A stretch of DNA of 64,000 bases from Lentisphaeria bacterium. GTDB lineage: Bacteria; Verrucomicrobiota; Lentisphaeria; Victivallales; UBA1829. This document shows positions 51,501 to 59,895 of the stretch, one piece after another. Position 1 is the first letter of the stretch; each line of letters opens with the position of its first letter. Where the stretch lies: contig JAFXYP010000002.1 of the NCBI GenBank assembly GCA_017541665.1, positions 1 through 64,000 on the forward strand, given 5' to 3'. Made by a program: the position numbers and the translations under genes. Under the pieces are notes generated by a model. The model did not search any database. It saw only the letters and a list, made by a program, of their open reading frames with translations, and was not told the DNA's origin.

Positions 51501-51844
51501 GTCTTTTTCATGAATCCGGGAACGGTTTCCGTCAGCCGGTTGCGGGATTCGTTGCCCCGACACATGGCGGTGCAGCACAAATGTCCGGGAAGGCCCTTTC
51601 CGGCGCATTTGAGGTCTGGAGGCAGGAGAATCCGCGTCTATGTGCGTCATGTCCGGCAATGGACCCGGAAAGGCCTCCGAACGAGTTTTTGAATGCCGAG
51701 CCGGGAAGAGGCGTGTGCCGGACACGGCCTGCCGGACGAATGATGCGGTTTGCGCCCGTTTTGATGCCTGTTCGGCGAAACGGTCTGTAATCCGGCGAAA
51801 AAAAAAGCCTCGAAACTTTTGCAAGTGTCTGAGGTTCTATCAGT
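51501..51844. other. Gene-free stretch between the pilus operon and the integrated element
   Basis: About 340 bp of chromosomal spacer with no convincing gene, RNA or repeat on either strand. It ends at the left attachment site of the integrated element. Confidence 0.5.
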
Positions 51845-51895
51845 AAAAATTGGAGCCGGCTCTCGGATTCGAACCGAGGACCGACGGTTTACAAA
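51845..51895. repeat. attL, 51-bp direct repeat of the tRNA-Thr 3' half
   Basis: It is identical to 59815-59865. It includes the TGGAGCCGGC end (complement of the tRNA 3' end with CCA) through the T-arm to the anticodon loop (ACAAA). After it the sequence diverges (GCAATAG versus ACCGTAG), so this is a tRNA fragment left by integration and not a working gene. Confidence 0.92.
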
Positions 51896-51936
51896 GCAAT
51901 AGTCCACAAGCTCAAAGATGAGCTGAAAACCGCGAT

Positions 51937-51956
51937 TTTCCGTAATTTTTCCGTAA
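51937..51956 (+). repeat. Arm-type integrase site pair (left end)
   Basis: Two TTTCCGTAA copies at 51937-51945 and 51948-51956, 11 bp apart. The same motif is repeated at the right end of the element, so these are probable integrase arm-binding sites. Confidence 0.65.
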
Positions 51957-51963
51957 AAGTTGC

Positions 51964-51992
51964 TTGAAAAACGCCGGAAGGTAGCGTATAGT
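51964..51992 (+). promoter_or_regulatory. Promoter for the integrase gene
   Basis: TTGAAA (51964-51969), a 17-bp spacer and TATAGT (51987-51992), just after the left arm-type pair. Integrase bound to the arm sites could therefore limit its own transcription. Confidence 0.6.
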
Positions 51993-52041
51993 ATCATAGC
52001 GTTTCAGTCAAAAAACCAACACACAACGGAGACGGCGGGCT

Positions 52042-53964
52042 ATGGTAAAACAAAAGAAGCAGGGCGGCGCGTGGTACTATGAGTTCATGCACCGCGGGAA
52101 GCGGCATTACGGAACGTGCGAAGGGGCGGCAAGCAAGCGGGAGGCGGAAGCCTTCGAGAAGACCGTCCGGGAGAAGGCGGCCCAGGCCGCCGGGCTGAAA
52201 AGCGTAAAGGCACTTTACGAGACGTTCCGGGAGGATTTGACCGGCGGAAAGCAAATCACCCTGGATGAAGCCTTTGATCTTTCCTTGAAGAAACCGCGGA
52301 AGAGAACACCCGCCGAAAAACAGATTGCTTTGAAGCGGGGAGTATGGCGCGATTTTCTCGACTTCATCCACGGCGAACACCCGGAAATTGTCACGCTTTC
52401 CGACGTGAAGAAGACACACGCGGAGGAGTATATCGTCCGGCTCCGTGAATCCGGGAAATATAACAAGGCCATTCAGTACAGCCGGGCCGGGAAGAGGCGC
52501 GGGACCGTTTCTTACAGCAGACCGGAAGACGCCCACCTGTCCCCCCGCACAATCAACTATTATCAAATCACCTGCGCCGAAGTGTTCACCCTGCTGAAAG
52601 ATGATGTCGGCTTGCAGGAAAACCCGTTTTCAAGCATCCTCAAACTCGATATGAAAAATGAGACCCGCGAAGCGTTCACGCCGGAGGAGTTGCAAACGAT
52701 CTTTGACAACCTCGACGGATTCACCCGCCCGCTTTTCATGCTTGCCGTATGGACGGGGCTCCGGGAGGGGGATATTTGCACCCTCAAATGGGGAGACGTG
52801 GACCTGGACCGGCGTTTGATTACGCGGAAAACGCGGAAAACTGGGGCCGTCGTTCAGATTCCCATATCCGACCAGCTCTATAGCCTGCTGTCTTCGACGC
52901 CTCGCGCGGAGGGGGCCGACTATGTTTTCCCCAAACACGCCGAAATGTATTTGAAGAACCCGGACGGCGTTTCCTACCGGGTGAAAAAGTACCTGGAAGG
53001 GCTCGGCATTCAAACCACGCGGAAGCCGGACGGGCGGACGCGGGCAATCAGCACAAAAGATTTGCATTCCTGCCGCCATACTTTCTGCTACTACGCCGGG
53101 CTTGCGGGGATTCCGCTTTCCGTCGTTCAAGCGATTGTCGGCCACATGTCCCCGGCGATGACCGCGCACTATTCCGCCCACGCCTCGATAGAAGACAAGC
53201 GGCACGGCATGAGGCGGCTTTCCTTCGCGCCCGCCGCCCTGCCGGAGCACGAAGACGAACCGGAACGGGCCGAAGCCCGCCGCCTTGTCGGCACGATGTC
53301 GCTTGACGAGCTCCGCGCCCTTCTCCGGGCAGTTTCAAGCAGGGAGGGCGACGGAATGACGAAGCGACCGAACGACGAAACGCCCGCCCCGGACCTCTGC
53401 CGTCCGGACGGGGATATATGCGGAATTGAGGAACGCCGCGAAGCTATAAGAAAACTTGCCCGCCGCCTGTTCACCTCACCCCTTCCGACCTCTGCTTTAT
53501 GCGCCCTGCTGAACGAGGATGAAGCGCCCCTTTGGGCCTTTGCGAAGCTCCCACGGCTTGCGAAAAAGGAAAAGGTATCACGGGAAGCGGGCGAAGAGTG
53601 GGCGGCTTGCGCCCCGCAAAGACGAGGCGGGCGTGAGCTCACAATGGAACTTCTCGACGCTACAATATACGAGCTTCAAAAGGAGCTCGGCAGACGCCCC
53701 AAAGCGGCGGAAGTTTGCCGGAGGCTAAGCGACAAGAGGGGAACGACGGAAGACGCGGAAAAAATAGCTGTCCGCCGCCTGTTCGCCTCGATTGTATGCG
53801 CTTATTCCCCGCAACATCTGGAAGCCATAAAAGAGGGTATTCCGGGGGATTACTGGGACCCCACAGCGGGAGACTGCGAAACGCCCGAAGAAAAGCCCGA
53901 AACCCTCACGGAGTATATCCGGACGCGGACGCTTACGCCCGAAGAGCTGAACGACCTTTTTTGA
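52042..53964 (+). CDS. Tyrosine site-specific integrase with extended C-terminus
   Basis: A 640-residue integrase. The tyrosine-recombinase set is complete: R241 (TGLREGD), H342 and R345 (HSCRHTF), H368 (GHMSPAM) and the nucleophile Y377 (TAHYSAH). The N-terminal part (about 1-75) is an AP2-like arm-binding domain (AWYYEFMHRGKRHYG), and a core-binding domain follows (about 85-200). The catalytic domain ends near 395, so about 245 extra residues remain. They contain a further helical domain (KAAEVCRRLSDKRGTTEDA) of unknown role. GGAGACGG precedes the ATG. It would integrate the element into the tRNA-Thr gene. Confidence 0.92.
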   Translation: MVKQKKQGGAWYYEFMHRGKRHYGTCEGAASKREAEAFEKTVREKAAQAAGLKSVKALYETFREDLTGGKQITLDEAFDLSLKKPRKRTPAEKQIALKRGVWRDFLDFIHGEHPEIVTLSDVKKTHAEEYIVRLRESGKYNKAIQYSRAGKRRGTVSYSRPEDAHLSPRTINYYQITCAEVFTLLKDDVGLQENPFSSILKLDMKNETREAFTPEELQTIFDNLDGFTRPLFMLAVWTGLREGDICTLKWGDVDLDRRLITRKTRKTGAVVQIPISDQLYSLLSSTPRAEGADYVFPKHAEMYLKNPDGVSYRVKKYLEGLGIQTTRKPDGRTRAISTKDLHSCRHTFCYYAGLAGIPLSVVQAIVGHMSPAMTAHYSAHASIEDKRHGMRRLSFAPAALPEHEDEPERAEARRLVGTMSLDELRALLRAVSSREGDGMTKRPNDETPAPDLCRPDGDICGIEERREAIRKLARRLFTSPLPTSALCALLNEDEAPLWAFAKLPRLAKKEKVSREAGEEWAACAPQRRGGRELTMELLDATIYELQKELGRRPKAAEVCRRLSDKRGTTEDAEKIAVRRLFASIVCAYSPQHLEAIKEGIPGDYWDPTAGDCETPEEKPETLTEYIRTRTLTPEELNDLF

Positions 53965-53974
53965 ATAAAAATCG

Positions 53975-53995
53975 GGAGCATAGTTTTTATGCTCC
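53975..53995 (+). terminator. Hairpin after the integrase gene (weak terminator)
   Basis: A perfect 8-bp stem, GGAGCATA (53975-53982) with TATGCTCC (53988-53995), lies 10 bp after the integrase stop. It is followed by GTTCTCC rather than a T run, so termination would be weak or factor-dependent. Confidence 0.4.
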
Positions 53996-54013
53996 GTTCT
54001 CCCGTGGTGTAAA

Positions 54014-54075
54014 GTGGTTTCAAGGGGACGCATTCCGCAACCCCACGAAACCACGGCGGCGAACTCAACGCCGCC
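54014..54075 (+). promoter_or_regulatory. Two-hairpin leader ahead of the excisionase-like gene
   Basis: Hairpin 1 pairs GTGGTTTC (54014-54021) with GAAACCAC (54047-54054), with GGGG (54024-54027) facing CCCC (54041-54044) inside. Hairpin 2 pairs GGCGGCG (54055-54061) with CGCCGCC (54069-54075). Both stems are perfect and adjacent, ending 10 bp before the GGGAGG ribosome-binding site, so they could control expression of the gene at 54096. Confidence 0.55.
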
Positions 54076-54095
54076 ACAACACACGGGAGGTCCTA

Positions 54096-54425
54096 ATGAC
54101 CGTTCAACACCTTTCCCCTCACGTCCTGGACGCCGCTGTACGGGTGCTTCAACCCGACGTCCCGGGCCTCACCCCCGCCGCGCTTTCCGCCGCTCTGCGT
54201 GAATTCCCGCGGGCAAAAAACGCCCTGCCGGAAAAGGCGCTCACCCGCCGGGAGACCGCGGACGTGCTGCACGTCTCGATCTCGACAATCAACCGAATGC
54301 TGAAAGCCGGAAAGCTGAAAGCGTCCCGCGTCAACTTCCGAAGCGTCCGCATAGACCCGGCAAGCGTCCGCGCCATTCTGGGCGGCAAGTACACTTACGG
54401 AGGGAGGCGGCGCGATGAGGTATAA
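54096..54425 (+). CDS. Excisionase-like HTH protein
   Basis: A 109-residue protein with a C-terminal MerR/excisionase-type helix-turn-helix (LTRRETADVLHVSISTINRM, then AGKLKASRVNFRSVRIDPASV). A helical N-terminal half may mediate dimerisation. A strong GGGAGG site precedes the ATG at 54096; longer in-frame starts overlap the integrase and are not credible. Its place between integrase and replication genes fits a directionality factor or the element's early regulator. Confidence 0.75.
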   Translation: MTVQHLSPHVLDAAVRVLQPDVPGLTPAALSAALREFPRAKNALPEKALTRRETADVLHVSISTINRMLKAGKLKASRVNFRSVRIDPASVRAILGGKYTYGGRRRDEV

Positions 54426-54675
54426 AGCAGTTATCCACACGGGTTTCCCCTCGACGCTGAAACACGAAGCCGAAGCCCGCGCAAAAGGGGCGGCGTTTCA
54501 CCCGCAGAATGAATTTATGCGGAAGTTTCGCGGTGCTTGGATAAAGGCCACAAAAGGACCGCGGAGCGGGCGGGCGCGGGCTCTTACTTCCGGTGCAAGC
54601 GAGCTGTACTGGCCGCGAGAAACAAACCGCCTTGAGGATGCCGAACTCGCCCGCTTGAAAGGGGGGAACGCATGA
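54415..54675 (+). CDS. Small element-encoded protein (86 aa)
   Basis: An 86-residue basic protein (MRYKAVIHTGFPSTLKHEAE) overlapping both neighbours by a few bases, with a GGAGG site upstream. It contains many Arg/Lys residues (GPRSGRARAL) and no known domain. The tight overlaps place it in an excisionase-to-primase operon. It may bind nucleic acid, but that is only suggested by charge. Confidence 0.6.
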   Translation: MRYKAVIHTGFPSTLKHEAEARAKGAAFHPQNEFMRKFRGAWIKATKGPRSGRARALTSGASELYWPRETNRLEDAELARLKGGNA

Positions 54676-57206
54676 ACCGCACCGCCACGAAAAAAGCCGC
54701 GCCGGAAAGGAACAGCGCGGCCACGGAAAAAGGAAAGCCCCTCGTTATGAATAATATAACCCCGTCAACGCAAAAAGCAAGCGGGAACGACACGAAAACG
54801 GCGATTTTACGCGCCGCTGAATTTTACCTCAAAAAAGGCTATTCCGTCCTGCCCGTTTCCAGGGAGACAAAAAATAACTGGCCGCAGACCTGGAAAGAAT
54901 ACCAGACCAGGCGCATGACGCCCGCAGAATTTACGCGGTGTTTTGAGGCGTGGACTATCAAAGAAAAGCCGAAGAAGCCCGCCGGAGAAAAGGCGGAGCC
55001 CGCGCGTGCCTTCAAGCCGGACGCCCTCGCCGTAATCTGTGGCGCGGTATCTGGAAATCTGGTGATACTGGACTTTGACAATCACCACGGCGGAGAAAGT
55101 GTCTTTGAAGAGTGGAAAAGCTACGTCTGCGAAACAGAAGCCGGGCGCGCGCTTTTCGCCCGTCTCGTTCTCGAACAATCCCAAAGCGGCGGGGTCCATG
55201 TTCCCTTCCGCCTCACAACCCCGCCGGGAAGCAAACAGGAACTCGCCAAAACGGAAGACGGCGGGAATGCGGTGATAGAGGCACTGGGGGAGGCGCACTT
55301 TGCCCTTTGTCCGCCGACGCCCGGATATAAGGCAATACAGGGTTGCCCCGGCGAATACCCCACGATCACCCCGGACGAATGGGGAATCCTCGCCACCGCC
55401 GCGGCACAATGCGACAAACGCCCGCTTGCGGGCCTGGAAGAGCTCCTACGCCACGAAAGGAAGAGCGAGGGGAAAGGATGGGCGGTAATGCCCGGCAAGG
55501 CATACAGCGCGCGGGAAAACGCATTGGAGGAAACGCGGGAAATGCTGATAGACGCCGGATGGACGCCGGACGGGGGCACCACGTGGAAAGGATGCCGTGG
55601 CGAGCATTTCACACGGCCAGGAAAAGACGCCGGAACGAGCGCCACACTTTTTGAAATGAAGACGGAAAGCGGAACCGTCCCGCTTTTCCACGTCTTCACC
55701 TCGAACGGCGCACCATTTGAAGCCGGGAAAACATACGACCCCTTCGGCGTCTATGCTCAGCTGAACCACAACGGGGATACAACCGCCGCCGCTGCGGCAC
55801 TTCACGCCGAAGGGTACGGGGAGAAGGGCGCCGCCTCGAAGAAAACGCCGGGCATAAATGAGCTTGCGGCGGGATTCCTCGCGGAATGGGACGCCGCTCG
55901 GACCGTGAACGGCGGCCACTGCTTGAAGAAGTACCGCGGCGCGTTCTATGAGTTCTGCCGTGATTCTGGATGGCGGGAAATTAGCGGCGAGGACCTCGGC
56001 GGCCATATCGCGGAGTACCTTTGGAAACGGAAAGTAGACGCCACGGCGAAACGGCAAAGCGATATAAAGGCCGCGCTTGGTGCACGAAATCTTTGTCTTT
56101 TGCCCTCGGACACGGAAACCCCTTTCTGCATTTCCACCGGGGAAAGCCTCGACCGCTCGGCGGTGATTCCGGTAAAAAATGGGGCACTGCGGATTCCGAA
56201 CGGAGCGAAAAGCCGGGCAGATTTACAGCTTGACCCGCTCACGGAGGATATTTTTTCCCCCTATTCTCTTCCCGTCCCTTACGAGCCGACGGCGGAAACG
56301 CCCGCATTTACCCGCTATCTGCGCGACGTTCTCCCCAGGGAGGCCGACCGGGAGACGGTCCGCCGGATGTTCGGTTATGCGCTCACGCCGGACCGGCGCT
56401 TGCAGGTGTTTTTCATCCTGTACGGGCCGCCGCATACAGGCAAAAGCCGTATTATTGAAACGTTCGATTCTCTTTTCGGAGAAAATCTGTGCTCCCATGT
56501 CCCGTATGAACAATTAGGGGAAAAATTCGGGCGCGCAGCACTGACAAGAGCGCTGGTAAACTGTGCGGCGGAACTCCGTTGCCGCGGGGAGGGTGAAGAA
56601 TTCTTAAAGCAGGCGGTAGACGGGGGGCGGGTGCACGTTGAGGAGAAATTCAAGGAAGCATACGACGCCGCGGCAACGGCTCTTTTAGTTTTTGCAAGCA
56701 ACAACCCGCCAAAGTTCCGGGATAAAACGGGCTCCGTATGGCGACGCCTTCGGCTTCTTCTTTTTGAAATTGTCATAGGAAATGAAGAAAAAGACGCGGC
56801 ACTTCAAAGCAAGATCAATCGGGAGCTTTCCGGCGTCCTCAACTTTGCGCTTGACGGCCTGCTGGAAATCCGGGAGCTAAACGCATTCCCGGAAAACAAA
56901 AGCGGAAAAGAGTTTCTGGAAGAATTACGGGAGCTTGAAGACCCCATACCGGAAGCGCTCGAAGCGTGTATTGTCGAAGCTCCGGGGGCATTTCTGGAAT
57001 CCGGCGAGCTTTACGGACGCCTGCGGCTGTATCTTCGGCAAAAAAAGAACTTGGAAAATGTCTCTGACGTCTGGCTCGCCGTCGGGGTAAAGCGGGCCCT
57101 TGGGATAAAAGGTAGCGTCCCGCGGCGAAACGGGCAGCGGGGTTTCCCGGATATTGCCCTCAAACAGACCAGTTTTGACGGGTTGTTGACGGGTTTTGTC
57201 GGGTAG
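54672..57206 (+). CDS. Bifunctional primase/polymerase-SF3 helicase (P4 alpha / D5-like replication protein)
   Basis: An 844-residue replication protein. The N-terminal prim-pol-like domain has GYSVLPVSRETKNNWP, VICGAVSGNLVILDFD (acidic catalytic pair) and QSGGVHVPF. The C-terminal D5/SF3 helicase has Walker A GPPHTGKS (K591), a DRETVRRMFGYALTPD entry region and the sensor FASNNPPKFRDKTGSVWRRLRLL. This combination drives replication of phage satellites and some plasmids. Its last codons (FDGLLTGFVG) are themselves iteron repeats, so the origin begins inside the gene. The ATG overlaps the previous stop. Confidence 0.88.
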   Translation: MNRTATKKAAPERNSAATEKGKPLVMNNITPSTQKASGNDTKTAILRAAEFYLKKGYSVLPVSRETKNNWPQTWKEYQTRRMTPAEFTRCFEAWTIKEKPKKPAGEKAEPARAFKPDALAVICGAVSGNLVILDFDNHHGGESVFEEWKSYVCETEAGRALFARLVLEQSQSGGVHVPFRLTTPPGSKQELAKTEDGGNAVIEALGEAHFALCPPTPGYKAIQGCPGEYPTITPDEWGILATAAAQCDKRPLAGLEELLRHERKSEGKGWAVMPGKAYSARENALEETREMLIDAGWTPDGGTTWKGCRGEHFTRPGKDAGTSATLFEMKTESGTVPLFHVFTSNGAPFEAGKTYDPFGVYAQLNHNGDTTAAAAALHAEGYGEKGAASKKTPGINELAAGFLAEWDAARTVNGGHCLKKYRGAFYEFCRDSGWREISGEDLGGHIAEYLWKRKVDATAKRQSDIKAALGARNLCLLPSDTETPFCISTGESLDRSAVIPVKNGALRIPNGAKSRADLQLDPLTEDIFSPYSLPVPYEPTAETPAFTRYLRDVLPREADRETVRRMFGYALTPDRRLQVFFILYGPPHTGKSRIIETFDSLFGENLCSHVPYEQLGEKFGRAALTRALVNCAAELRCRGEGEEFLKQAVDGGRVHVEEKFKEAYDAAATALLVFASNNPPKFRDKTGSVWRRLRLLLFEIVIGNEEKDAALQSKINRELSGVLNFALDGLLEIRELNAFPENKSGKEFLEELRELEDPIPEALEACIVEAPGAFLESGELYGRLRLYLRQKKNLENVSDVWLAVGVKRALGIKGSVPRRNGQRGFPDIALKQTSFDGLLTGFVG

Positions 57207-57458
57207 TGTCATTTGTAAAAAATTGAAAGTATAGGGGTTTTGTCAAGTTGACGGGTTAACTTGCGAAACCTCTATATATTTGTGTCTTTTTTCCGCTCTT
57301 CTTCATTTTCCCTTATGCTTTTTATATTCTCCCTTTTGGAACAAAAGTATATAAAAACCGAACTTAACCCGTCAACTTGACAAACATACTGGTAATAAGA
57401 GGATTAACCCGTCAAGCGCCCCGACAAAACCCGTCAACAACCCGTCAAAACCCGTCAA
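57175..57458. repeat. Iteron array, putative replication origin of the element
   Basis: TTGACGGGTT occurs at 57175, 57186 and 57248, with a variant TTGTCGGGTA at 57196. Its complement AACCCGTCAA occurs at 57366, 57406, 57428, 57439 and 57449. The repeats are in opposite orientation on each side of about 100 bp of A/T-rich DNA (57258-57360). A 22-bp near-perfect inverted repeat (57242-57263 with 57361-57382) flanks that core. This layout is what an origin bound by the adjacent primase-helicase should look like. Confidence 0.8.
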
Positions 57459-57681
57459 GAGTTTCGGCCTCTTGGCAAACACGGAGAACCCCGGTATTTT
57501 TGCCGCAACTTCCGCCGCTGCTTGCTTTTTTTTTTTCACCTGGAGCAAAACCCGGTAATATCCATTCGGAGCGACGAAAAACAAGCTGTATTTATAGTGA
57601 CGTAATGTCATAGTGAACAAAAAAGAGCGTTACAAGCTCAAAAATGTTGTAATAATTAATACAAAACGCCGTTAAAGACTC

Positions 57682-57710
57682 TTGACAAATAGCGCAAAAC
57701 GTGGTACATT
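57682..57710 (+). promoter_or_regulatory. Strong promoter within the element
   Basis: TTGACA (57682-57687), a 17-bp spacer and TACATT (57705-57710). The predicted transcript begins near 57717, where no ORF with a ribosome-binding site follows for almost 900 bp. Confidence 0.7.
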
Positions 57711-57716
57711 ACAAGT

Positions 57717-57910
57717 AAAAATGCGGTGTTTGCGCCACGAAAACACCCGCCGCCGGAGATTCTGCGCCCGTACCGGGCGAACCGGCCACACCGAGCAAAA
57801 GCCGGGGCGTCTCTGTGCGAATGACACCCCCGCCGCGGCATAACTGCGTTTTTGGGGGTACACCCCTCAAAACGAAAAACGCCGCACCCTTGCCCCTATG
57901 CGGGGCCAGA
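57717..57910 (+). ncRNA. Candidate structured RNA of the element
   Basis: Downstream of the promoter several hairpins follow: GGTGTTT/AAACACC (57725-57731 with 57741-57747), GCCCG-TAC-CGGGC near 57766-57778, CCGGC/GCCGG near 57782-57805 and GGGGG-TA-CACCCC near 57855-57867. The last part is the duplicated core also found at 59105-59190. The combination of a strong promoter, dense folding and no coding frame makes an RNA plausible; a mobilization or origin-type DNA site is an alternative. Confidence 0.45.
57818..57898 (+). repeat. Duplicated structured core, copy A
   Basis: It begins CGAATGACACCCCCGCCGCG and contains GTTTTTGGGGGTACACCCC and GCCGCACCCTTGCCCCT. Copy B at 59105-59187 shares these blocks with variable loop sequence. 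The GGGGGTACACCCC hairpin is perfect in both. Confidence 0.8.
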
Positions 57911-58601
57911 GCAAGAAAGGCTACGGCGGGGCGCGTCCCGACCGTGGCGCGTCCGCCGGGATTCGATGCCCCACGCGCGGAGACTCTTCCCGGCGGATGA
58001 AATAAGATACCCCAGAAACGCAAAAAGTCAAGTGCACCCGAAAAAAGCAAGGCTGAAACAACCGGCCTTCGCCAAAGCTCAACGTGGAAATAATCCCCAC
58101 GGGGTTCCGATTGCCTCAACCTTGACTCTCACAAAAAAGCCGTCAGACCCATATAGGGGAGACGGGAACCAAATCCCGCAACATCCCGGCGAATGACGGC
58201 ACAAAAAAGACCAACGGAGCTTTTTCGCGAATCCTGGAAATTGCCAAGAGCTTGAAGGGGACTAATGTCCGCCCTGCCGTCCGTCAGTCTTTGGAGAATA
58301 ATATACACCCGGTTCCGGGAAAAGTCAAACCCGCCTTTTTCGCAGGAAAAAGCGCCGGGCAGCTTGAAAAGGGAAAGCGGACGGGTTATATTATCTGCGT
58401 TCCGGCTGGAACCGGGACAGGGCTTTTATCTCACGGCGGGACCATCAACCCCGCCAAAAGCGGCACGCCGCCGCGAGCCTCCAAAGAGATTTTCTTTTTT
58501 ATGGGCGCTTGCCGCTTTGCGTGAAACCGGATTGATACCCCGGCGAGGTGTTCCAGCACCGACCGCAAGGCGGCTTTTTATGCCAGGAAAGCGTGGACTA
58601 C

Positions 58602-59111
58602 ATGAACCACACCGAAACCACCACCGCCACCAACACCCCGAACGCCACCCGCGCAAAAATGAAGAAGGGCGGCCCCCGCTTCAAGCTCTCGCCCCTTCTC
58701 TACTACGTCCCCTTTTCGGACAAGCGGGAAACACCGGAAACCGCCCTCTTCTGGAAGACAGGACGGCGGGAGTATTACGCCCCCATGACCCGCGAAGAGG
58801 CCGCCGGATTCCTGGCCGAATATTACGCGGGATGGCCGGAAGATGAAAAAGCCCTGGGAAAAGCCCTTGCCCCCTACGGCGCACATGTACCGGAACGCGT
58901 CCCGGGCGATAAGACGGAACGCCGCCGCGTCCTCGAAAAGACGCTTGAAGCTGTCCCGGACGGAAAGCTGGACCGCCTCTTGACCGCTTACCTCCTGGGA
59001 AACCTGGCACTCCTGGAAATCTTTGTTGCCGGTGCGAACCATGAACGGCGGAAAGTGGAAGCGGGCGGGAAGGACGCGGGCGAAAAAAGGGGGCTGTGCG
59101 TGAACGAATGA
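58602..59111 (+). CDS. Orphan element gene, unknown function (169 aa)
   Basis: A 169-residue protein beginning MNHTETTTATNTPNATRAKM, a Thr/Asn-rich start, then FKLSPLLYYVPFSDKRETPE, FLAEYYAGWPEDEKALGKAL and a helical region (DGKLDRLLTAYLLGNLALLE). No signal peptide or known catalytic motif is visible. It is the only clear gene between the origin and the right end. Its stop codon lies within the first bases of repeat copy B. It is a candidate cargo or helper-interference gene, but nothing in the sequence tells its role. Confidence 0.6.
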   Translation: MNHTETTTATNTPNATRAKMKKGGPRFKLSPLLYYVPFSDKRETPETALFWKTGRREYYAPMTREEAAGFLAEYYAGWPEDEKALGKALAPYGAHVPERVPGDKTERRRVLEKTLEAVPDGKLDRLLTAYLLGNLALLEIFVAGANHERRKVEAGGKDAGEKRGLCVNE

Positions 59112-59187
59112 CACCCCCGCCGCGGCGCTGTTCAGTTTTTGGGGGTACACCCCCTCGAAAGCGACCAGCGCCGCACCCTTGCCCCTC
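59105..59187 (+). repeat. Duplicated structured core, copy B
   Basis: It shares CGAATGACACCCCCGCCGCG, GTTTTTGGGGGTACACCCC and GCCGCACCCTTGCCCCT with copy A, 1.29 kb to the left, in the same orientation. The loops between blocks differ, so the conserved pieces are probably selected. Confidence 0.8.
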
Positions 59188-59814
59188 CGGGCGAACAAAG
59201 ACCGCGCCGCTCTCTCGCCGGGCGGCGCTTTCCTTTTGTCTCGATGCCGGACGCGCTGCACCCGCCGCAACGTCGAACGCCCCGCGCCGGGATCGCCTCG
59301 CCCGGATTACGGAATAGTTACGGAAAGACAAAAGGGCGCGAGAAAAAAGCGCAAGCCCGCCGTATTTATGCCGCCGATTCCGCCCGCCCGGCGCATGTTC
59401 CCGCCCTGCTTTCCGATCGTTTCGTGCTTGACGCCGCCACGGACCGCCCGAAACTCCCGGCCCGTCTGGTCCTTTCCGCGCGGGCGCAAGAGGACGGAGC
59501 GGGAAAAGCGGCGCACCTCAAACCGCCGGATTTTCTGCGCCTCAAACCGTGCTCAGATTACGGAAAAATTACGGAAAACCGGGCCGCCGGACCGCCCTGT
59601 ATTTGCGATTTGAGGTAAAAGGGAGAATGCCCGCCGGGCCTTTCCGGGCTTTCCGTAAAAGACCGCCCCGGACGCCCCGCTCGAACCGGGGAAAGACCCC
59701 GTTTTAGCCTCAAAACTGCCGGGGATTCTTTCCGTAATTTTTCCGTAATTCTTGCCACAAAGTCACAAAAAACCAGACGGTTTCACGCGATAGCAAAACA
59801 GGGGATTTAGCCTC
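59188..59814. other. Right-end non-coding stretch of the element with arm-type sites
   Basis: About 630 bp with no convincing gene. It contains an inverted TTACGGAA pair (59307, 59318), an inverted pair (59558, 59569), a single TTTCCGTAA (59650) and a direct pair (59729, 59740). These probably form the right attachment arm of the integrase. Confidence 0.55.
59729..59748 (+). repeat. Arm-type integrase site pair (right end)
   Basis: TTTCCGTAA at 59729-59737 and 59740-59748, 11 bp apart, in the same form and orientation as the left pair at 51937-51956. Confidence 0.65.
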
Positions 59815-59865
59815 AAAAATTGGAGCCGGCTCTCGGATTCGAACCGAGGACCGACGGTTTACAAA
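59815..59865. repeat. attR, 51-bp direct repeat within the tRNA-Thr gene
   Basis: It is identical to attL and lies across the tRNA 3' half, so the element restores the gene's 3' end on integration. The uninterrupted 5' half lies outside the element to the right. Confidence 0.92.
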
Positions 59866-59895
59866 ACCGTAGCTCTACCGCTGAGCTAAGCCGGC
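59821..59895 (-). tRNA. tRNA-Thr (anticodon TGT)
   Basis: A complete cloverleaf on the minus strand: acceptor GCCGGCT/AGCCGGC, D-arm GCTC...GAGC, anticodon stem ACGGT/ACCGT with loop TTTGTAA (anticodon TGT), T-arm CTCGG-TTCGAAT-CCGAG and encoded CCA (59823-59821). It is the integration target of the 8-kb element, and its 3' half is duplicated at 51851-51895. Confidence 0.95.

Follow-up and report, generated by a model that had tools for sequence, protein, structure and literature searches.

A putative phage-satellite-type element of a Lentisphaeria bacterium with a C4-like RNA module shared with prophages

Described satellites and how the element compares

Only a few bacterial groups are known to have phage satellites, and phage immunity based on RNAs of the C4 and CI type has been described mainly in Proteobacteria. 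The P4 CI RNA acts similarly to C4. To our knowledge, almost no phage biology exists for the phylum that contains the Lentisphaeria. C4 of phages P1 and P7 represses ant via complementary loop sequences and sets heteroimmunity (PMC12197685), and c4-a1b1, a motif of Proteobacteria and phages, is listed as its companion (PMC2864571). The hallmarks of P4 are psu, sid, delta and epsilon (PMC8628076). Phage-inducible chromosomal minimalist islands (PICMIs) are described from the Vibrionaceae (PMC10803314).

The element described here lies in a 64-kb window, the whole stretch of DNA that was analysed, from an uncultured rumen Lentisphaeria bacterium whose genome is 77% complete in 87 contigs. The relatives of the host genome belong to the Lentisphaeria/Victivallales and are mostly rumen MAGs (G, C and L numbers are our handles for genomes, contigs and loci). 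The gene order is that of a PICMI: an integrase, an AlpA-type regulator (PF12728), a small gene, a DUF5906 primase and an uncharacterised gene. PICMIs are recognised by a tyrosine integrase, AlpA (PF12728 or PF05930) and a DUF5906 or DUF3987 primase in this order, and the element has all three. It is likewise tiny, is bounded by direct repeats and has no capsid-remodelling genes. PICMIs are inserted next to fis, whereas the element is inserted in a tRNA-Thr gene. It also differs in its Lentisphaeria host, the fusion of PrimPol to SF3, the iteron origin, the C4-like RNA and an extra integrase domain. PICMIs are induced and packaged by a helper phage; for the element, such dependence is a prediction.

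Integration of the tRNA type, an AlpA/Vis-like protein and a primase-helicase with a cognate origin are likenesses to P4. The counterpart of the alpha-type primase-helicase with its own origin is a PrimPol-DUF5906 protein with iterons, which does not match P4's own profile. The RNA module of the element, judged by its structure and loop covariation, would be the counterpart of the leader antisense RNA (CI) immunity of P4, and P2-type phages occur in the same host class. However, the proteins are unrelated to those of P4 beyond domain folds, and the RNA is unmatched by known models. psu, sid, delta and epsilon had no Pfam match in the ORFs of the element, and none of them is among the PHROG families that were listed in a scan of 11 elements. 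Because the site, host, origin and RNA are different and the P4 hallmarks are missing, the element is placed in neither group. We therefore call it a satellite-type element, working like PICMIs and P4 but a member of neither. A reading of the DNA without database searches (the sequence-only reading) had likened it to P4-type satellites. This interpretation is supported in part. The RNA module held in common with P2-type prophages strengthens the analogy, whereas the gene order is nearer to PICMI than to P4 and the proposed reliance on a helper is still an inference.

Other described elements are further removed. PICIs have their own terminase small subunit or packaging interference genes, which are absent from the element; a terminase small subunit is present in a related element (G120). 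Mobilizable elements of the IME/NBU type have a relaxase, and none was found by Pfam among the ORFs of the element. Tycheposons and other integrative elements with their own replication combine a tRNA-targeting tyrosine recombinase with a replication module, as the element does. Tycheposons are set apart by their description, which places them in another host phylum and another size class.

Integration site, genes and relatives

The element spans positions 51845-59865 in tRNA-Thr(TGT), and the insert is 7,970 bp (Table 1). The 51-bp att repeats proposed by the sequence-only reading are identical at 51 of 51 bases (BLAST E 1e-24), the tRNA gene is intact, and the site is empty in four genomes of the same genus (G003, G004, G009, G010). 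In these genomes the terminator hairpin directly follows the tRNA-Thr gene, and the two are contiguous at 81-85% over about 100 bp. This contiguity indicates a clean insertion between the tRNA and its terminator, and the insertion is real. Arm-type repeats of the integrase, TTTCCGTAATTTTTCCGTAA, are present at both ends of the element. For the TTACGGAAA repeat, the window has 11 copies, of which 8 are located at the ends of the element (0.3 expected by chance). An analogous repeat occurs at both ends of the element in G006.

Table 1. Features of the element and its insertion site (positions in the window)
Feature	Position	Strand	Remarks
Ancestral tRNA-Thr terminator hairpin	51799-51843	-	now 8 kb away from the tRNA, left of the element
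attL	51845-51895		51 bp copied from the 3' end of tRNA-Thr, equal to 59815-59865
Arm-type repeat pair TTACGGAAA	51937-51956		near attL; partner pairs 59306-59326, 59557-59577, 59729-59748
Tyrosine integrase, 640 aa	52042-53964	+	PF00589, 5e-21
AlpA/Xis-type HTH_17 regulator	54096-54425	+	PF12728, 7e-7; PHROG excisionase, 2.5e-7
Orphan ORF, 86 aa	54415-54675	+	between HTH and primase genes; no family match (Pfam, PHROG)
PrimPol + SF3 (DUF5906) primase-helicase, 844 aa, intact	54672-57206	+	PF09250, 1.9e-9; PF19263, 3e-14
Replication origin (predicted)	57172-57458		inverted TTGACGGGTT iteron clusters around an AT-rich centre; inverted repeats I1 and I4
Direct repeat	57797-57897 and 59084-59186		84% over 82 nt; flanks the RNA/orfX cassette
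Sigma-70 promoter TTGAAA-17-TATATT	58364-58392	+	equivalent in nearly all relatives
5' hairpin at presumed transcript start	58399-58418	+	loop CUGGAA, predicted to pair with the variable loop of the RNA
C4/CI-like three-way-junction RNA, 75 nt	58509-58583	+	ends in a U-run; kissing loop UUCCAG
orfX, orphan, 169 aa	~58602-59111	+	about 20 nt after the RNA; position of an antirepressor or controlled gene
attR	59815-59865		inside the intact tRNA-Thr(TGT) (59821-59895, minus strand), its 3' part

The integrase, the excisionase-like regulator and the primase/SF3 helicase named in the sequence-only reading are all matched by Pfam families, the last two also by PHROG families, and the integrase and primase are intact. 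The primase-helicase matches the DNA primase family phrog_1156 (2e-53); as a single-protein query it had no match in the genome or viral collections. The origin named there corresponds to eight exact copies of the iteron within 57175-57458, three in one orientation and five in the other, with one further exact copy in the rest of the window. The two or so unknown genes are the 86-aa ORF and orfX. No homologue of orfX was found by Pfam, PHROG or further homology searches, and its AlphaFold model is poor (pLDDT 52). Structural, terminase and relaxase genes were again not found among the ORFs of the element (the relaxase by Pfam scan). The window's copy also has no packaging site, terminase small subunit or capsid-remodelling gene. 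The direct repeats around the promoter-RNA-orfX cassette include GGGGGTACACCCC, and the core motif is absent elsewhere in the genus; these flanking repeats could mark cassette exchange.

The RNA module at 58364-58583, the arm repeats at both ends and a 206-aa extension of the integrase had gone unmentioned in that reading. The catalytic part of the integrase comprises aa 1-434, and the extra C-terminal domain comprises aa 435-640 (53347-53961). Relatives match only aa 1-434 (42-72%), and no homologue of the C-terminal domain was found. At the corresponding place in PICMI-type elements, a separate gene overlaps the end of int (PMC10803314). The extension may be a fusion with such a gene, which its position fits, in a domain that is itself without homologue.

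Relatives of the catalytic part are 57-72% identical within the genus and 42-53% beyond it. The 56 integrase loci in species genomes are nearly all named Lentisphaerae, with a small remainder on MAG contigs that bear the names of other phyla. Single scans of viral contigs with the integrase and with orfX gave no match, after which an alignment of the integrase retrieved distant relatives (30-40%) on viral contigs of 22-55 kb. The closest integrase (72%) is located in G001 beside a tRNA-Arg fragment, with the same arm-repeat pair between the two, and is accompanied by HTH_17 and SF3 genes. The G001 element (L065:446-7789) also encodes a reverse transcriptase (PF00078, 8e-35), as well as a pair of unclassified genes, one of which is nucleotidyltransferase-like. 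Two integrase relatives (L077, L079) have serine for the first catalytic arginine (GLSEGDIC vs GLREGDIC).

The sequence-only reading would have been undermined if the relatives were larger prophages or did not exist. Relatives bounded by att repeats are instead 3.5-11 kb in size and occupy tRNA-Arg, Val, Met, Leu, Lys and Thr genes of other Lentisphaeria. Complete examples are found in tRNA-Arg(CCT) (5.8 kb, G006), tRNA-Val (5.5 kb, with SF3 helicase, G003), tRNA-Met (about 7.8 kb, with DnaB, a Victivallis MAG), tRNA-Arg(TCT) (about 3.5 kb) and tRNA-Thr(CGT) (11.3 kb). These elements share the integrase, have swapped replication genes and are nearly without virion genes. The replication modules that accompany the shared integrase are thus interchangeable. 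Among the 25 of 37 PHROG families listed for the 93 ORFs of 11 small elements, one terminase small subunit is the sole head or packaging match. It belongs to the G120 element (phrog_309, 4e-30), which has a weak tape-measure match as well and is without large subunit, portal or capsid. A tape-measure-like gene is kept in some small relatives. The 8.86-kb element in tRNA-Thr of G189 encodes a large cargo protein (L286:7010-9043; phrog_8741, function uncharacterised, 5.6e-89).

A structured leader RNA with complementary loops

The RNA module was first seen in a comparison of the window with the tRNA-Met element, as a conserved non-coding leader before unrelated small ORFs. Exact sequence patterns located it in two more Victivallales elements. 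The four founder RNAs fold alike into an 11-bp stem that encloses two hairpins, with a U-run at the end, and the folding energy of the window RNA is -30.9 kcal/mol (z -3.9). The conserved core is GUGAAG ... GCAAGGUG-loop-CACCGACC. A covariance model built from the four founders only found a match in 26 of 198 class genomes, and a second model matched only in the class Lentisphaeria among 388 genomes of the phylum. In a 30-row alignment, which was fitted to the structure and contains a few weak rows, 96.1% of the cells are paired (38-47% when slid) and both sides have changed in 21 of 22 pairs. Covariation is 0.518 as opposed to 0.177 in shuffled alignments (0/500).

The RNA has no match in Rfam, and the C4 model RF01695 matched none of 20 RNA members at E 1. 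Among the RF01695 matches in 137 genomes, none is at an RNA site and none is above the cut-off. This putative RNA switch is previously uncatalogued as far as the open-access literature is concerned. Sub-threshold RF01695 matches occur elsewhere (36-37 bits, cut-off 45; G055:C68:36418-36500 and G081:C24:36730-36792), and a true C4 relative may also exist in Lentisphaeria genomes. Rfam matches close to the element (suhB, gyrA) did not reach the cut-off and lack credibility. Judging by their flanks, locus L236 and the matches in IMG/VR to an 18-mer of the RNA (L224-L228) arose by chance. A gapped pattern of the RNA gave 120 matches in IMG/VR, about as many as chance would produce, and the model scored none of them convincingly (one short weak match, E 0.007).

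The RNA is present in both small elements and prophages. The small att-bounded elements that carry it are those of the window (7.97 kb), G006 (5.82 kb), G015 (7.67 kb), G038 (about 7.8 kb), G073 (about 7.9 kb), G081 (8.22 kb) and G120 (8.82 kb), together with G189 (8.86 kb) as a weak match. In the cultured strain WC36 (L279, CP085689), the RNA is located in a P2-type prophage with P2-family TerL, scaffold, capsid (1e-87), gpM and gpL. No close counterpart of this prophage region was present in the collection of phage records, and a SIR2-like gene (PF13289, 7e-26) is directly upstream of its RNA module. Other RNA-bearing prophages have a phrog_68 portal, baseplate and tail fibre (G055), a large terminase (G066) or a head-tail adaptor (G028). 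The antirepressor genes Bro-N or Phage_pRha (Rha) are directly downstream of the RNA in three prophage loci, and orphan ORFs such as orfX occupy the same position in small elements. G028 has two tandem modules with different loops, one before Bro-N and one before Phage_pRha, and a 54-nt repeated promoter region (L281:8599-9313). The window and the elements of G001:C6 and G005:C3 have only 230 bp in common (58362-58591, 78%), from the promoter to the RNA and with the same loop, which indicates that the module moves between elements. Most integrase-sharing elements are without the RNA, and the link between the two is therefore loose.

In the four founders, the variable loop of the second hairpin has an exact 8-nt complement 81-104 nt upstream. 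Complementarity was then assessed in members found by the covariance model, which carries no information on the upstream region. The complement is located 59-114 nt upstream, usually 12-15 nt past the -10 box of a sigma-70 promoter, and occupies the loop of a short hairpin with which the transcript presumably starts. Of the 21 unique loops, 19 have their own complement of 6 nt or more, as opposed to 4.8% of cross pairs on the apical loop (0/100,000 permutations); out of sample the count is 15 of 17 (z 8). No complementarity signal came from a control region or from the other hairpin. A downstream complement is enriched in the first 40 nt, where the start codon lies (z 3); over 70 nt the downstream test is not significant. 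Loop sequences vary widely between elements with otherwise similar RNAs, and the complementarity is kept. Where one genome has several copies of the RNA (G028, G045, G066, G081), their loops always differ, in numbers too small for a test. By analogy, this loop pattern matches the antisense-RNA heteroimmunity of P1 C4 and P4 CI.

The likeness to C4 (P1/P7, RF01695) with its c4-a1b1 target and to IsrK of Gifsy-1 lies in a structured RNA of about 77 nt in an antirepressor-gene leader. Specificity that comes from short complementary loop sequences and an upstream target on the same transcript are further likenesses. The leader is that of an antirepressor gene in the three prophage loci, whereas the gene in the window is an orphan. 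The RNA differs from C4 in that RF01695 matches no site, in its distinct core, in its kissing 5' hairpin partner and in its restriction to Lentisphaeria in the genomes searched.

Proposed mode of action and alternatives

We consider it probable that the element is an intact minimal integrative element of the phage-satellite type, similar to PICMIs and P4, with a C4-like switch that would act in trans and a helper that would package it. From protein families and anatomy, the integrase, the AlpA-type Xis and the arm sites would excise the element from tRNA-Thr, and the PrimPol-SF3 protein would replicate it from the iteron origin. In the integrated state, the promoter would constitutively transcribe the leader and yield the 75-nt RNA. 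This RNA would repress in trans, with its loop in kissing contact with the 5' hairpin of the leader from which it comes. In some relatives, it may pair near the start codon as well. Such pairing would keep orfX silent and provide sequence-specific immunity, like C4 in P1/P7 and CI in P4, with loop diversity conferring specificity. A helper phage would lift the repression; expression of orfX would follow, with excision and replication of the element and its packaging in helper particles. Against this reading, the 77%-complete host genome yielded neither a helper nor a matching prophage with the one portal family tested. The lack of packaging functions in the window's copy, the orphan state and poor model of orfX and the loose link between integrase and RNA also speak against it.

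The complementary loops would equally arise from purely cis pairing, and the RNA could be an attenuator only, in which the loops contact each other within one transcript and tune read-through into orfX without immunity in trans. In every case a single transcript holds both loop partners, and a terminator-like U-run closes the RNA. We nevertheless regard this reading as rather unlikely, since the loops diversify widely among similar RNAs with complementarity kept and the start-codon-proximal complement is enriched. The different loops of same-genome copies, in four genomes, are too few for a test but are what heteroimmunity predicts.

Two further alternatives concern the element as a whole. An integrative plasmid or mobilizable element would excise, replicate from its iterons and be moved by a co-resident conjugative element or another non-phage route. 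The complete integrase, excisionase and replication set with an iteron origin is as found in integrative plasmids, and no virion or packaging gene occurs in the window element. This origin is unlikely, however, as no relaxase was found in Pfam scans of its ORFs, the RNA module is otherwise located upstream of phage antirepressors and in P2-type prophages, and a module-sharing relative of the same size has a terminase small subunit. It is highly improbable that the element is a decayed prophage that lost its virion genes, even though full prophages have the same RNA switch, the distant integrase relatives are on large viral contigs, and a tape-measure-like gene survives in some small relatives. 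The integrase and primase are intact and the att repeats perfect. Moreover, independent elements of 5.8, 7.7, 7.8, 7.9, 8.0, 8.2 and 8.8 kb retain integrase, excisionase and replication genes intact and in the same order, and recurrent decay would not yield such similar sizes and gene order.

Returning to the satellite-type reading, the small elements and prophages with a common RNA suggest a new family of viral parasites. A wider and more tentative picture, which we hold to be nearly as likely as not, is a P2/P4-like helper-satellite world of the Lentisphaeria. In it, a new family of tRNA-inserted satellites of about 8 kb and P2-type prophages would exchange horizontally an undescribed antisense RNA that has the role but not the sequence of C4, and its kissing loops would define immunity groups through which they sense or exclude each other. 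Release of phage particles is reported for WC36 (PMC11361711), and this cultured strain has one copy of the RNA in its P2-type prophage, which makes the idea testable. If it is true, helper-satellite relations would be readable from sequence, with equal loops predicting cross-immunity, and antisense heteroimmunity would have arisen or spread far more widely than in the Proteobacteria.
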